A stretch of 64,000 nt of DNA. Source: a virus. Numbering within the stretch: position 1 is the first letter of the stretch; the number at the start of each line of letters is the position of its first letter. The position numbers were made by a program, and so were the translations under genes. The DNA lies in IMG/VR virus record IMGVR_UViG_3300035698_035366, positions 232,120 through 296,119 of that record. One strand, 5' to 3'. Shown in pieces: positions 17,561 through 61,201 of the stretch. The notes under the pieces were generated by a model. It searched no databases, had not been told where the DNA came from, and saw only the letters and a program-made list of their open reading frames with translations.

Positions 17561-17651
17561 ACTTGGCGTAGCTCAGGGATGCTTGATAAGCAGGGTAGAG
17601 CAGCCGCGCGAGAACAGCGGTGTGACGGTGGTTCGAAACCATCCCCAAGTA
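17561..17651 (+). tRNA. tRNA-like gene with D-loop hairpin insertion
   Basis: Acceptor ACTTGGC/CCCAAGT, D-stem GCTC/GAGC, T-loop TTCGAAA. The D-loop carries an extra hairpin TGCTT-GAT-AAGCA. The anticodon stem GCCGC/GCGGT holds a 9-nt loop without a clear T33, so identity is unassigned. Discriminator A. Confidence 0.5.
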
Positions 17652-17660
17652 CAAAATAAT

Positions 17661-17736
17661 GCCCTTGTGGTCAAATTGGAAAAGGCGCTCGGTTTAGGTC
17701 CGAGAGATTTTGCAGGTTCGAGTCCTGCCAGGGGCA
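17661..17736 (+). tRNA. tRNA-Leu (TAG)
   Basis: Acceptor GCCCTTG/CAGGGGC, anticodon loop TTTAGGT, T-loop TTCGAGT, discriminator A, CCA encoded; short variable region. Confidence 0.88.
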
Positions 17737-17747
17737 CCAGAAATTAT

Positions 17748-17818
17748 ATCCTTGAGGTCCAGGGAATGGACACCTCCTTGTCCGGGAGGAGATCACCACT
17801 TCGATGTGGTCAAGGATG
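17748..17818 (+). tRNA. tRNA-Asp-like (GTC)
   Basis: Acceptor ATCCTTG/CAAGGAT, D-stem GTCC/GGAC, anticodon arm CCTCC-TTGTCCG-GGAGG, T-arm ACCAC/GTGGT with a 6-nt loop TTCGAT, discriminator G, CCA encoded. Position 37 is C and the T-loop is one base short. Confidence 0.6.
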
Positions 17819-17822
17819 CCAA

Positions 17823-17893
17823 GCTTAGAAGTGGATGGGAATTGACACCTTGTTACTCTCCCAGGTAATGTAGGATGCAAGCCACGCTAGGCG
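17823..17893 (+). ncRNA. tRNA-sized structured element, unassigned
   Basis: GCTTAG/CTAGGC outer helix, TGGGA (17836)/TCCCA (17859) and ACC/GGT interleaving inside, plus a GATGCAAGC stretch like the atypical T-loops. No clear anticodon arm. Confidence 0.3.
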
Positions 17894-17902
17894 TAAAATT
17901 AT

Positions 17903-17977
17903 GCATCTGTATCCCTGTCCGCTGCGAACGGATTGAAAGGTAATTGGATCATGCACGTTCGAATCGTGTCAGGTGCG
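17903..17977 (+). tRNA. tRNA-Arg (GCG), no D-arm
   Basis: Acceptor GCATCTG/CAGGTGC, anticodon arm GTCCG-CTGCGAA-CGGAT, T-arm GCACG-TTCGAAT-CGTGT, discriminator G, CCA encoded. Only 7 nt separate the acceptor from the anticodon stem, so there is no D-arm. The variable region is 19 nt and contains TAATTGGAT, which resembles a D-loop. Confidence 0.75.
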
Positions 17978-18014
17978 CCAAAACAAATAGGTGAACGGTA
18001 GTAGCCTTTGATGT

Positions 18015-18058
18015 GCGGATGGAGTTCGATTCTCCTACTGGATGGGTTCGACTCCCAC
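18015..18058 (+). other. Two orphan T-arm-like hairpins
   Basis: GGAG-TTCGATT-CTCC and TGGG-TTCGACT-CCCA follow each other with no matching 5' tRNA halves. They are probably tRNA remnants. Confidence 0.35.
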
Positions 18059-18063
18059 CCGGG

Positions 18064-18132
18064 CTTGGTTTAGCAAAACATCATACGCGAGAGCGTGTCG
18101 CGTCAACATTGGTCGATCCAACGGAAACCAAG
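18064..18132 (+). ncRNA. Structured RNA, unknown
   Basis: CTTGGTTT (18064-18071)/AAACCAAG (18125-18132) encloses ACGCGA-GAGCGTG-TCGCGT and TTGG-TCGAT-CCAA. Three-way junction without tRNA consensus loops. Confidence 0.35.
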
Positions 18133-18158
18133 GATTGAATGGCGCACTTTTATTTTAT

Positions 18159-18234
18159 GCGTCTGTATGCCGCCGGTTTTCGAGACCGGAGAAAGCTAAC
18201 TGGACACATGCGGGTTCGACTCCTGCCAGGCGCG
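18159..18234 (+). tRNA. tRNA-Arg (TCG), no D-arm
   Basis: Acceptor GCGTCTG/CAGGCGC, anticodon arm CCGGT-TTTCGAG-ACCGG, T-arm GCGGG-TTCGACT-CCTGC, discriminator G, CCA encoded. As in the GCG gene at 17903, only 7 nt (18166-18172) precede the anticodon stem. A 20-nt variable region includes GCTAACTGGAC, like a D-loop with GG. Confidence 0.75.
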
Positions 18235-18253
18235 CCAAGTTATAAATACTTAC

Positions 18254-18922
18254 ATGATATATAATGAATTATTAGAAGGCCGCGACGCATCACTTTGGCA
18301 TGGTATACAAATGAAGTATGCCCATGAGATTCTATCTAATATGAAAATAGAAGGTCGAACAACTCAAAGATATTGGCCTGACGGAATGCGGAGAAGAGAA
18401 GATGATCCAGACTATGAAGATAGCTTTTGGATGAAAGGCATTTCAACAACTCGTGATCCGTTATATGCATCTAGTTGGGGAAGCTTAGTTTTAGAATTAG
18501 ATCAAGCAGCGATAACACGGAATTACAAAATTGTTCCGTATAGCTGGGGATTCCATATGAAGGGTGCCAGCACTAAGAGAGAACGAGAAGAATTTATTAT
18601 TCTGTCGATGACTGGCAAGTCTATGAAAGATTATGAAAAAATATCAAATGATTCCATGCAAACTGATAACCCAACAAGTGCAATGAATTTATGGTATGCC
18701 CCAGAAGGAAAAGCATTAGATTTGAACAAATGCTTAAAAGGTGTATACATATCGGATTCAACATTTGAAATATATGGCGAAGATAATGATGAGATACAAT
18801 ACATCATGAAACATCCAAAATTCAAAGGATTGCTTCCAAGCACTATTCGTTCGGACAATCCAGAAAAGAAAGCTGCACGTAAAGAATTACGTGACCGAAT
18901 TAATAGTCAAATCAAAAATTAA
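18254..18922 (+). CDS. ADP-ribosyltransferase-like protein
   Basis: 222 residues. Three landmarks of the ADP-ribosyltransferase fold appear in order: LWHG at residues 14-17, the STT motif in MKGISTTRDPLYA (residues ~60-72) and an ExE pair in KREREEFII (residues 108-116). The fold transfers ADP-ribose from NAD to a target; phages such as T4 use such enzymes to modify host proteins. Similarity is at motif level only and the C-terminal 70 residues are unassigned. Located between tRNA-Arg and tRNA-His. Confidence 0.5.
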   Translation: MIYNELLEGRDASLWHGIQMKYAHEILSNMKIEGRTTQRYWPDGMRRREDDPDYEDSFWMKGISTTRDPLYASSWGSLVLELDQAAITRNYKIVPYSWGFHMKGASTKREREEFIILSMTGKSMKDYEKISNDSMQTDNPTSAMNLWYAPEGKALDLNKCLKGVYISDSTFEIYGEDNDEIQYIMKHPKFKGLLPSTIRSDNPEKKAARKELRDRINSQIKN

Positions 18923-19068: not shown

Positions 19069-19581
19069 ATGATGTCTACTGTTATTTGGTATAAAGGAAA
19101 ATTATATTCCGATAGTCGGGTTACGAATGACTTATTAAATACGGAAACAGGTGATCTAGTAGATAGAATAATTGGAAAAGGTAAGAAACTTTTCCGCCAT
19201 CCCAAGAAAAATAAAATTTATGGTGTTACTGGTACGCTTGAAGGATTCGCTGATTTCAAAAGTCGTGGATATAAAGGATCATTGCGCTGGGGTACTGAAT
19301 CTTCATCGAAAACTTTGGTCATTGAATGGGATGGCGAACATTTGATTGGATGGGTTTACAAGGAAAAATATATCAAATGGCTTAGGATTTACATTTCCAA
19401 GTTTGTAAAAACAAAATATAATTGGAAGGATGCTCCAGAATTCAAGATATCAATGGGATCTGGTACCGAATATGCTAGTGAAATGTTAGATTACGGGTGT
19501 TCAATTAGAGAAGCAATTCAATATGCATCGGATCGAGATGAATATACCGACGATGAAGTTGTTACGTTAGAATTAGAATAA
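19069..19581 (+). CDS. Ntn-hydrolase (proteasome/HslV-like) protein
   Basis: 170 residues. The N-terminus (STVIWYKGKLYSDSRVT), KLFRHPKKNKIYGVTGTLEG and the C-terminal helix SMGSGTEYASEMLDYGCSIREA follow the proteasome-beta/HslV-like pattern seen in phage proteins: a strand bearing D-S-R near residue 15, a glycine-rich turn and the GSG-x-Y-A helix. Such proteins may be peptidases, but the nucleophile is not clear here. A second ATG at 19072 could also be the start. Confidence 0.7.
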   Translation: MMSTVIWYKGKLYSDSRVTNDLLNTETGDLVDRIIGKGKKLFRHPKKNKIYGVTGTLEGFADFKSRGYKGSLRWGTESSSKTLVIEWDGEHLIGWVYKEKYIKWLRIYISKFVKTKYNWKDAPEFKISMGSGTEYASEMLDYGCSIREAIQYASDRDEYTDDEVVTLELE

Positions 19582-55203: not shown

Positions 55204-57576
55204 ATGCGCCTGAGCAATAATATTGAAAACGTAGAGACCACTGGTGTTAGTGACCAGGTAAATTTCTCAATTACCGCTAGTGCGAAAGCCTTCCAGATTC
55301 TTTCGGATGGACTTTATTCTGATAAGATTCGAGCAATTATTCGTGAGCTGGCATGCAATGCACATGATGCTCATGTTGCCGCTGGATGCCCAGATCGCAA
55401 ATTCGATGTACAGTTCCCAACGGCGATGGAACCTGAATTCGTTATTCGGGATTACGGAATTGGGTTGAGTTATGATGACGTAATGCATCTGTACACCACA
55501 TATTTTGACAGCACAAAAACCCAGTCAAATGATTTCACCGGCGCACTTGGTCTTGGCTCAAAGAGTCCATTCAGTTACACCAAATCCTTTACCGTCATCA
55601 GCTATCATGGTGGTAAGAAGATGACGTTTACGTCGTTTATTGGTGAGAATGGCACGCCGCAATGTGCTCATATGTTCACCGAGCCAAGCACGGAAGAAGT
55701 TGGTCTTGAAGTCCGCTTCGGTGTTAATGATAGCGACTTTTATCAATTCGAAAATCGAGCCCAGCGCGTTTTCCGCTTTTTCAATAATGTTCCGAATATT
55801 ACTGGGATAGAATTTATCCAAGAGGAACAGACCATTATCGCCAGCGGTGAAGGCTGGCGGATTATCCGAAATGGTCGGCACCATAATGGTCGTGTTTTTG
55901 TTGTTCAAGGAAATGTTGGTTATCCCGTTAACGCAGATAGTATCAAGTTTGCAGACAATGAAACACCAATCCACAAGTTCCTGTCTCTTTCCAATGCCAC
56001 TGTTGAAATTGATTTCCCAATCGGTGAGCTCCAGTTTGCTGCTAGTCGCGAAGAACTTGGGTATGATGACGGGACACAGAAAAATCTCAAGGATCGTACC
56101 CGTGAAATTATGGCGGAAATCGCTGCAATGGTTAGCGATGATATTAAGGACGCCAAGACGCTTTGGGAAGCCCATATCAAACTTCATGATATTACTGAAA
56201 ATTATGGTCAATCATTGCTTGACTCATTGTCGGATGACTTTGCTCCAACCTGGCAAGGTCGACCGGTTCATAAAGAGAAATTAATGGTTGACTTGGATGA
56301 ATTTTCAGTAAGCCGTGGATATACTAAGTGGGGTGGCGGGAAATTCGACGAAGATGAAAACACTTTGGACTTGATGGTTAGCAAGTTTATCGAACCGTCA
56401 GAAGGTATTAATTGGAAAAAGATCAACGATGATCGTACATATGGTCGCGGCGCATATACAACACACATTTTTGACCGAACAGGATCCAAAATTACCATCC
56501 GTCCGGCATCACGTGTAACAATCATCGTTGATGATGTTCGCAAGCGCGGCATTTACAGCCGTATCAATAATGCGCTGCAAGATGCTCAATGGCGGAAGGC
56601 GAATAATGTACAGAGGCAAACCCTTGCGCTGTTTGAATTCTCAAACGACAATGATCAAGAAGCACTTCTAAACGAACTTGGAAATCCACCGGTTATCAAG
56701 GTTAGTGAACTACCTGCAAAGGTTGTTGGAAATAGCCGCGGCGATCATAATATCTTTCAATGCTCGTTCAAAGGACATAATGTTCGTGACCGTTGGACCC
56801 CAGAAACAGAGATTGGTCTAGAAGATGGTGGCATTTATGTGGAATTAAAGGCATTTATTCCGTATAAAGCAAATAGGGACAAATGGGACAATTCATTGTT
56901 TCGTAATATTATTAATGACGCAGTAGCATTGGGACTTCTCAAAGATGTATCTGATGTTAAGGGTTTCCGTGTTGCCCAGGTTAAAGAATACGAATTGGAT
57001 AAAAACCCAGATTGGATTGAATTTGGTGATTTCATGCGGGCTGAGATTTTGAAGAAATTGAAATGGACGCGCCTAGGTAAAAAGACGGTCCAGTCTTCTT
57101 CGAATCGGTTCGGCAATCGAGAGTATAAAATTGATAGCTTAAATGCAAAAAACAAGAATTGGGATCTTCTTGATAAGGAAACTGATCTCTGGAAGTTTAT
57201 TGAAAAAATACGCGATGTTAACCGAGACGAAATTAAACTTCGAGTACCAAAGTCTTTTGAAAAATATAACAAAGCCAATAATAACCGTTATAACGTAACA
57301 TGGGATATCAAGCTTGTTGAGATGGCTCGCATTATGCATATTAATATTCACGACGAGTTTGTTCTTGAACAGGATAATTTGAGCAAACAATACGATGAAA
57401 TTGCAACCAAATATCCAATGGTTTGTGCAATTGAACTAGATAGCTATGAACATAAACGAGCCGATCTATCCAACCCCAAACCCGTGATATCACAAGAGCC
57501 TGGCAACTATCGAACAGACATCAATGATGTTATGGCATGGCAATTGTGGGATGCAGTTGTTAATATCAAAGATTGA
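55204..57576 (+). CDS. rIIA: RIIA-like GHKL ATPase
   Basis: 790 residues. The N-terminal GHKL ATP-binding module is clear: N-box RELACNAHDAH (~residue 48), G1 box RDYGIGLSYDD (~82), G2 box TGALGLGSKSPF (~107), followed by a transducer-like region and a long C-terminal domain. It matches T4 RIIA in order and length. RIIA with RIIB protects infected cells against lambda Rex-type exclusion and related host defences; the partner is at 59570. Own promoter at 55148. Confidence 0.9.
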   Translation: MRLSNNIENVETTGVSDQVNFSITASAKAFQILSDGLYSDKIRAIIRELACNAHDAHVAAGCPDRKFDVQFPTAMEPEFVIRDYGIGLSYDDVMHLYTTYFDSTKTQSNDFTGALGLGSKSPFSYTKSFTVISYHGGKKMTFTSFIGENGTPQCAHMFTEPSTEEVGLEVRFGVNDSDFYQFENRAQRVFRFFNNVPNITGIEFIQEEQTIIASGEGWRIIRNGRHHNGRVFVVQGNVGYPVNADSIKFADNETPIHKFLSLSNATVEIDFPIGELQFAASREELGYDDGTQKNLKDRTREIMAEIAAMVSDDIKDAKTLWEAHIKLHDITENYGQSLLDSLSDDFAPTWQGRPVHKEKLMVDLDEFSVSRGYTKWGGGKFDEDENTLDLMVSKFIEPSEGINWKKINDDRTYGRGAYTTHIFDRTGSKITIRPASRVTIIVDDVRKRGIYSRINNALQDAQWRKANNVQRQTLALFEFSNDNDQEALLNELGNPPVIKVSELPAKVVGNSRGDHNIFQCSFKGHNVRDRWTPETEIGLEDGGIYVELKAFIPYKANRDKWDNSLFRNIINDAVALGLLKDVSDVKGFRVAQVKEYELDKNPDWIEFGDFMRAEILKKLKWTRLGKKTVQSSSNRFGNREYKIDSLNAKNKNWDLLDKETDLWKFIEKIRDVNRDEIKLRVPKSFEKYNKANNNRYNVTWDIKLVEMARIMHINIHDEFVLEQDNLSKQYDEIATKYPMVCAIELDSYEHKRADLSNPKPVISQEPGNYRTDINDVMAWQLWDAVVNIKD

Positions 57577-59569: not shown

Positions 59570-61201
59570 ATGAGCAAGCTTGATGCTGCAATCGCTGGTA
59601 GCGATTATATCACCGTGACAATCGATGGTGTGACACATTCACTCACCGAATCACACCCAAATTACGAAAAAGCTCGAGAAGCTCTAAAGATTCGGGATGC
59701 TGATCTGCTCTCGACCCTCGTTGATATTCCAAAATCCATTAATACGTTCAGTGGTGGTAAGGTCACCGTTGAAGGTGGTGTGATTATGTTTTCGGGGAAA
59801 GCCATTCATAACAGCCTAACACGGCGTATGATTGAGATGATGAAGGAAGGTTTTGACATCACATCTCTTGCCAATTTCTTGAAAAACATCCAGGGCAATC
59901 CAAGCTTCCGGGCAGTGAATGAACTTTATACGTTTTTGGAAGAGAACAAGCTTCCAATTACGGATGACGGGCATTTCCTAGCTTACAAGCGTGTTCGATC
60001 CAACTTCACAGATATCTTTACTGGAACATTTGATAATAGCCCAGGTAAGACGTGCGCGATGCCTCGTAACCAGGTCAACGAAGATAAGGACCAAACTTGC
60101 TCGGAAGGTCTACACTTCTGCTCAATCGAATACCTACCGCACTTTGGTTCGTATGGCGGAAATGACAACATCGTCATCGTTAAGATTAACCCAAGGGACG
60201 TTGTTTCGATTCCTTCCGATTACAACAATGCCAAGGGTCGAACTTGTCGCTATGTGGTAGTTGACCAATGGATGGGTTGGGAAGAGTTCGTCAAGGAACA
60301 GAAGGACTTCTTCGACAAGAGCGTAGTTAATGATTATACACCACCGTCCACCAAGGGCTCTGATGGTGAGACGCTAATGGACTTTGATCAAGCCGCTGAT
60401 CTCATTTGTGGTCATACACAGAACCCAGCTTCGTCTCTCCGTAAGCGTATCAATCGCGGAACCATTCGTACGGTAAATGGTCAGGTTGTTGTTGACGGCT
60501 TTTATACGCCACCAGTAACCATTGACGAAACACCTTCTAAGGTCGATATGACCGATGACGAAAAGAAGGATACTCGCGCCTGGAAGAATGGTTGGACTGC
60601 TGGCCGCGATGCAGCCTTAAATGATGTTTATTCACCAACGAGTGGTGTTGAAGCCCACCTAACAGACGAGCAGCGGCAAAATCCAGGACTTTACACAGAA
60701 GGATTTAGGGCCGGCTATGAAGGTATACAACCCATTGAGGTCATTGACGATGTCATTGATGCAAAGACCGGTGAAGTTAATTCCATTGAATGGCATCGGG
60801 GATTTTCCGAGGGAATTGTTATGGCTGATAAAGACATTGTCGATAATGATGTTTACGGTGATGGGTATGATGATATTGCTGGAGAACCTGGTGATAGAAA
60901 CGCTGGTTTTATTGTTGGTTATGATGAAGCATATGAGGCTTGGGTCAAGAGCGGAAAGGGTCGTCGAGCAGGCGCATCAAACAGTGAAGATTCAAAGCAT
61001 ACCGACCGTTCTTGGATCCAAGGAATCACTGACGGTATGAGTTCAGGAAAGATGGATAAAGTGTCTGGAAAAACGAAAGATGGTTGGCATAGGCCACCTG
61101 ATAATGTTTCACGCACGGATTATTACACTGAAGCATATACTCTTGCATATGAGCGAGTGTGGGACAATAGTGGGTGGAACTGGTTTGACGGCGACCGGTA
61201 A
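59570..61201 (+). CDS. rIIB: RIIB-like protein
   Basis: 543 residues, longer than T4 RIIB (~312). The first ~220 match RIIB: GGVIMFSGKAIHNSLTRRMI, FLKNIQGNPSFRAVNELYTF, GHFLAYKRV, TCSEGLHFCSIEYL. An HTH-like segment (ADLICGHTQNPASSLRKRIN) follows, then three repeat-like units with G-x-x-A/E-G (WKNGWTAGRDAALNDV; YTEGFRAGYEG; WHRGFSEGIVMAD). Partner of the RIIA-like protein at 55204. Confidence 0.85.
   Translation: MSKLDAAIAGSDYITVTIDGVTHSLTESHPNYEKAREALKIRDADLLSTLVDIPKSINTFSGGKVTVEGGVIMFSGKAIHNSLTRRMIEMMKEGFDITSLANFLKNIQGNPSFRAVNELYTFLEENKLPITDDGHFLAYKRVRSNFTDIFTGTFDNSPGKTCAMPRNQVNEDKDQTCSEGLHFCSIEYLPHFGSYGGNDNIVIVKINPRDVVSIPSDYNNAKGRTCRYVVVDQWMGWEEFVKEQKDFFDKSVVNDYTPPSTKGSDGETLMDFDQAADLICGHTQNPASSLRKRINRGTIRTVNGQVVVDGFYTPPVTIDETPSKVDMTDDEKKDTRAWKNGWTAGRDAALNDVYSPTSGVEAHLTDEQRQNPGLYTEGFRAGYEGIQPIEVIDDVIDAKTGEVNSIEWHRGFSEGIVMADKDIVDNDVYGDGYDDIAGEPGDRNAGFIVGYDEAYEAWVKSGKGRRAGASNSEDSKHTDRSWIQGITDGMSSGKMDKVSGKTKDGWHRPPDNVSRTDYYTEAYTLAYERVWDNSGWNWFDGDR

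Follow-up and report, generated by a model that had tools for sequence, protein, structure and literature searches.

Two putative phage tRNA-Arg genes with exchanged core segments suggest a second strand order for tRNA

We analyzed a 64,000-nucleotide (nt) stretch of viral DNA (positions 232,120 to 296,119 of IMG/VR record IMGVR_UViG_3300035698_035366; hereafter the window), which forms the end of a viral record of 296 kb. Two genes in the window, starting at positions 17903 and 18159, very probably encode arginine transfer RNAs (tRNAs) that work in translation with a new strand topology. In standard tRNA numbering, the order read from their sequences is 1-9, 22-47, 10-21, 48-76, so that two adjacent blocks are exchanged: block 10-21, comprising the D-stem 5' strand and the D-loop, and block 22-47, comprising the D-stem 3' strand, the anticodon arm and the variable loop. 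Our collection of relatives comprises 220 distinct genes, almost all of them phage-borne. It is highly likely, in our judgment, that they represent a second natural tRNA topology, in which an exact exchange of 10-21 and 22-47 keeps the tertiary contacts, and which serves Arg, Ile, CAT and Val codons in many phages, even Felix O1, while being largely missed by gene finders.

Architecture of the two window genes

Both genes start with a 7-bp acceptor stem including G.U pairs, followed by U8 A9, five nucleotides and a full anticodon arm; 7 nt separate the acceptor from the anticodon arm, with no D-arm there. The region after the anticodon arm is 19 and 20 nt long and carries TAATTGGAT and TAACTGGAC, respectively. 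The genes end with a normal T-arm, a discriminator G and an encoded CCA, and measure 75 and 76 nt up to the discriminator. An earlier note on the window had described two odd tRNA-Arg genes (GCG and TCG) with T-arms, encoded CCA, a 7-nt gap and 19-20 nt variable regions containing a D-loop-like GG within a total of 75-76 nt, and decomposition of the sequences bears this out. Its suggestion that the D-loop contact has moved behind the anticodon arm also proved right, and many relatives with covariation agree with it. The label 'without D-arm' has to be dropped: 3 nt soon after U8 A9 pair with 3 nt directly before U13 A14 R15 to form a short D-stem around the anticodon arm, and the D-loop segment (U13 A14 R15 .. 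G18 G19 N20 ... A21) joins residue 48 directly.

The tRNA-Arg(GCG) gene spans 17903-17980 on the plus strand, CCA included. Its acceptor 5' strand GCATCTG (residues 1-7; 17903-17909) forms 7/7 pairs with 17970-17976, and U8 A9 are read directly from the sequence at 17910-17911. The swapped block 22-47 (17912-17937), placed by the sequence and by pair statistics over relatives, contains U22, the D-stem 3' strand CCC (23-25), residue 26, the anticodon arm with GCG at 17924-17926, and the variable loop TGAA. Block 10-21 (17938-17951) contains the D-stem 5' strand AGG (10-12), U13 and the D-loop A14 A15 U U G18 G19 A20 .. A21, with the pairs 12-23 and 11-24 both G-C, and is followed by U48, the T-arm, the acceptor 3' strand, G73 and CCA (17952-17980). 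The tRNA-Arg(TCG) gene (18159-18237, plus strand, with CCA) is built alike: block 22-47 (18168-18193) contains U22, the D-stem 3' strand GCC, residue 26, the anticodon arm with TCG at 18180-18182, and the variable loop AGAA; block 10-21 (18194-18208) contains AGC (10-12), U13 and the D-loop A14 A15 C U G18 G19 A20 CAC A21; and U48, the T-arm, the acceptor 3' strand, G73 and CCA occupy 18209-18237. The pair 12-23 is C-G in this gene and G-C in the 17903 gene, a compensatory change.

ARAGORN reports 34 tRNA genes in the window, and these two are not among them. The Rfam tRNA model misses the 17903 gene and finds the 18159 gene marginally (31.2 bits, cut-off 29), in an alignment that omits the D-arm. 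R1, a covariance model derived from an alignment of 54 relatives that includes both window genes, gives 68.0 bits (E = 1.2e-16) for the 17903 gene and 76.6 bits (E = 4.6e-19) for the 18159 gene, versus 27.8 bits or less for everything else in the window, canonical tRNAs included. Since these scores lie far above those of canonical tRNAs and the same build occurs in hundreds of phage contigs, the two genes are not chance sequences.

Relatives in phages and covariation of the core

The relatives were collected by scanning viral contigs with DNA patterns. The first pattern, TAAYTGGAYNNATGCNNGTTCGA, leaves the anticodon unspecified; it matched 68 viral contigs, and most matches sit in complete genes of the rewired build, all with Arg anticodons. 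A second pattern, in which base 20 is not A, matched 92 contigs, mostly of the same build, with the anticodons GAT, TAT, CAT and TAC. The third pattern leaves base 20 free and allows A/G at 15 and T/C at 48, and its figures refer to the matches listed: a search of 70 newly fetched loci with R1 found genes scoring 73 bits or more in 66, ordinary tRNAs in the same DNA scored at most 33 bits, four loci carried a second rewired gene, and the four loci without a member were chance pattern matches. Two anticodon readings were discarded: an apparent ochre suppressor (TTA) was an artefact of stem placement and is TAC (Val) in the register of the other members, and a match with anticodon AGA (locus L271) looks like an ordinary tRNA picked up by the scanner. 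By BLAST against phages, the window stretch matched chiefly the T-arms of ordinary tRNAs, and one match led to a Microbacterium phage copy; the consensus had no match in E. coli genomes, and only partial matches of at most 48% query coverage in plasmids.

Members were selected on acceptor and T-stem pairing, the T-loop, U33, U8 A9, A/G at 14-15 and G18 G19, and A21 was fixed by the pattern in most; such features are therefore not independent evidence. The 220-gene set, used for the isotype counts, additionally demanded the two inner D-stem pairs, so the D-stem statistics were taken from 132 genes chosen without the D-stem, which also supplied the covariation alignment. Related sequences are not independent events. 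Among the 132 genes, the pairs 12-23, 11-24 and 10-25 form in 131, 132 and 106, respectively, with four Watson-Crick types, and the pairing is lost in most other registers. RNAalifold, run unguided, draws the identical D-stem, and in slid controls of the whole structure the paired fraction falls from 94.5% to at most 44.6%. The Levitt pair 15-48 covaries as well (A-U 68, G-C 14, other 4), with 82/86 of the third-scan genes among the matches listed having one of the two pairs. The check that the earlier note had proposed, covariation in homologues, comes out positive for both the D-stem and the 15-48 pair.

The remaining parts follow the ordinary plan. The acceptor stem, with 6-7 of 7 pairs (a selection criterion), joins both ends of the RNA and shows many compensatory pair types; the T-arm has a TTCRA loop (likewise selected) and covarying stem pairs; the anticodon loop has 7 nt, with the selected U33 and with A37 in 220/220; and 13-22 is U.U in most members. 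Compared with canonical tRNA (RF00005), especially bacterial tRNA-Arg, the rewired tRNAs share the acceptor, anticodon and T-arms, U33, G18 G19, A14, A21, R15-Y48 and A20, and are of the same length (mostly 75-79 nt), but residues 10-21 come after 47, the D-stem lies around the anticodon arm, the D-loop runs directly into 48, and the space between the acceptor and anticodon arms, 7 nt only, holds no D-arm. When 105 diverse members were given to ARAGORN, 0/105 were recognized as encoded, whereas 104/105 were recognized with the blocks swapped back, 102 of them keeping the anticodon. Shifting the boundary by 3-6 bases made this recovery much poorer in most cases.

Members occur in cultured phages that infect E. 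coli, Salmonella, Pectobacterium, Serratia, Agrobacterium, Vibrio, Bacteroides, Streptomyces and Microbacterium, and Mildred21 has four. In the records that we opened they are unannotated, labelled tRNA-OTHER, or overlain by a hypothetical or HNH open reading frame (ORF). Felix O1 (NC_005282) has an unannotated rewired tRNA-Arg(TCT) at 25951-26029 plus CCA (to 26032), beside a canonical tRNA-Arg(ACG). Its 3' end and the annotated start of an HNH endonuclease ORF overlap; AF320576 also lists a shorter form of this ORF that begins at 26048, outside the tRNA. Most of this sequence is present in 118 phage records, with at least 95% identity in 116. For two tRNA-rich phages (L062 and L088), ARAGORN reports tRNAs with 2- or 4-base anticodons (tRNA-???). 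The comparison shows a family that exists in many phages, in which the D-stem and the 15-48 pair covary and the identity bases follow the anticodon (see below). Among bacterial genomes, a complete member was found only in Mesorhizobium sp. Root552 (NZ_LMFV01000010, 2737-2811); it was the sole complete gene in a scan of one genome per species with the A20 pattern, the U20 form not having been scanned in bacteria, and among 299 genomes of the same phylum no other had a member. Its neighbors within a few kb are Ppx/GppA-like and RlmE-like genes, identified by eye, and a tRNA-Gln; it could be a prophage remnant or a resident gene. Four of the five bacterial-contig matches of the first pattern have no surrounding tRNA, and we take them to be chance matches.

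Isotypes, decoding and competing explanations

Although anticodons were not selected for, only Arg, Ile, CAT and Val anticodons occur; the aminoacyl-tRNA synthetases for Arg, Ile, Met and Val are all class Ia enzymes. Every one of the 100 Arg genes has A at position 20; of the 120 Ile/CAT/Val genes, 119 have U there and all 120 carry A73. In bacteria the chief Arg determinant is A20, and the Ile determinants include U20 and A73 (PMC9976931); the base 20 pattern therefore agrees with the determinants of bacterial arginyl-tRNA synthetase (ArgRS) and its Ile counterpart (IleRS). The CAT members could be Met or Ile2 tRNAs. Furthermore, the rewired and canonical genes of one locus seldom share an Arg anticodon: 3 overlaps were found versus 18.3 expected when the canonical sets were shuffled among loci (3 versus 18.0 after deduplication), and 8 versus 13.6 for Ile, although the loci are mostly parts of contigs whose canonical anticodon sets may be incomplete. 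The phage of the window fits this division, with canonical Arg tRNAs for CCT, TCT and CCG and rewired ones for GCG and TCG. The top Arg codons, counted in the ORFs of the window, are CGT, CGA and CGC; all three are without a canonical tRNA in the record, and the CCG tRNA covers CGG. Base 20, base 73 and the complementarity of anticodons thus lend indirect backing to aminoacylation and ribosomal decoding of the predicted RNAs.

We infer the expression, charging, decoding and three-dimensional fold of the rewired tRNAs as follows. The chain would run through the acceptor, U8 A9, the D-stem 3' strand, the anticodon arm, the variable loop, the D-stem 5' strand, the D-loop, residue 48, the T-arm and back to the acceptor. 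The tRNA core is built of the layers 8-14-21, 15-48, 13-22-46, 12-23-9 and 10-25-45. The changed links 9 to 22, 47 to 10 and 21 to 48 would each join residues of the same or neighboring layers, so that the L shape should change little and the RNA could fold to a near-normal L. It would then be matured and charged by ArgRS via A20 and the anticodon. In translation, the GCG tRNA would read CGY and the TCG tRNA CGA/CGG, which would complete the set begun by the CCT, TCT and CCG tRNAs of the phage.

Several observations weigh against this interpretation. The D-stem of the window genes has just two Watson-Crick pairs plus C.A and U.U. Single-sequence folding energies are no better than those of shuffles. 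A boundary shift of one base is nearly as good in ARAGORN; its precise position therefore depends on the conserved core bases, part of which were prescribed by the patterns. CCA is encoded in 73/220 genes, and the 147/220 without it would need CCA addition by the host.

Among the competing explanations, the strongest, which we still regard as improbable, is that the genes produce non-decoding tRNA-like RNAs with a role in infection, such as that of decoys for defence nucleases that cut tRNA. Colicin D cleaves tRNA-Arg, which speaks for this idea, and the odd core could alter recognition by such nucleases. Phage tRNAs have been proposed to counter tRNA-depleting defences (PMC10264068, PMC11555353), and colicin D is among the nucleases named in the former (PMC10264068). 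The anticodons, however, complement rather than repeat those of the canonical Arg tRNAs at their locus, bases 20 and 73 track the anticodon, and a third of the genes encode CCA. The tRNAs of those two studies are likewise phage-encoded and supplement the host pool, but one concerns changes in the anticodon loop (PMC10264068) and the other specific phage tRNAs against retrons (PMC11555353), and the term D-arm appears in neither.

It is very unlikely that the RNAs are D-armless like some animal mitochondrial tRNAs, the extra variable-region sequence being filler or a partial substitute. The 7-nt spacing and the failure of standard tools to detect a D-arm invite this comparison, which the earlier note had drawn, and D-armless mitochondrial tRNAs such as Ascaris suum tRNA-Ser(UCU) are likewise without a stem-loop between the acceptor and anticodon arms (PMC7609411, a review in which phages and viruses go unmentioned). 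But those tRNAs have no D-arm, whereas here the D-stem, A14, R15, G18, G19, base 20, A21 and the 15-48 pair are all there, in exchanged order. Among the 132 unselected genes, 131 and 132 pair the two sides flanking the anticodon arm, with compensatory changes, and in the D-loop segment the 15-48 pair still covaries and base 20 depends on the isotype. Of the overall reading in the earlier note, then, the relocated D-loop contact stands and the D-armless label does not.

Even less probable are functionless pseudogenes derived from ordinary tRNA genes by rearrangement or deletion, a case for which one may cite the further tRNA-like sequences of damaged look nearby, at 17562-18140. The identical order recurs in phages of nine host genera, the Felix O1 copy is highly conserved, and stems and identity bases remain under constraint. 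The earlier note had named deletion pseudogenes with conventional homologues as the outcome that would undo its proposal; instead, the homologues have the same exchanged order, and show compensatory changes as well as identity bases specific to each isotype.

In the circularly permuted and split tRNA genes that occur in archaea and algae, the 3' half precedes the 5' half or the two lie apart, and processing yields canonical tRNA; an altered segment order is common to both, but the rewired genes move an internal block and keep normal ends, with the acceptor strands at both gene ends and no 3' half placed upstream across an intervening sequence. That the RNA is similarly cut and rejoined is scarcely credible, even though swapping the blocks back yields recognizable canonical tRNAs: the junctions lack intervening sequence, the acceptor and T-arm already adjoin at the gene ends, the core contacts are already possible in the encoded order, and bacteria are not known to perform internal RNA transposition of this kind.

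Significance and surroundings of the genes

We found no earlier description of such tRNAs in open-access full texts; the family is likely to be new, which is not certain because subscription journals and preprints lay outside that search. The arm order acceptor, D, anticodon, variable, T has been treated as fixed for tRNA and is apparently not obligatory. If the new topology is real, translation requires the fold and not the cloverleaf order, and the rule on arm order can be put to a direct test in E. coli K-12, using phages already available. It would also account for some of the unassigned 'tRNA-OTHER' calls in phage genomes, change the counts of phage tRNA repertoires, and provide a naturally occurring tRNA body to which host enzymes with the D-arm as their target might respond differently.

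Around the two genes, several tRNA-like sequences at 17562-18140 are called neither by ARAGORN nor by Rfam: one with a D-loop insert (17562-17652), one with an Asp-like GTC and a short T-loop (17754-17826), one with two T-arm-like hairpins (17985-18060) and one with hairpins inside an 8-bp stem (18063-18137). The protein encoded by the flanking ORF 18254-18922 had no relatives among viral contigs, so synteny could not be used. Elsewhere in the window, ORF 27663-28526 resembles by eye the catalytic part of glutamyl-tRNA synthetase, its PHROGs matches being of unknown function. Other PHROGs matches are an HslV-like peptidase (19069-19581), RIIA-like (55204-57576) and RIIB-like (59570-61201) proteins, and a ribose-phosphate pyrophosphokinase (62469-63422).
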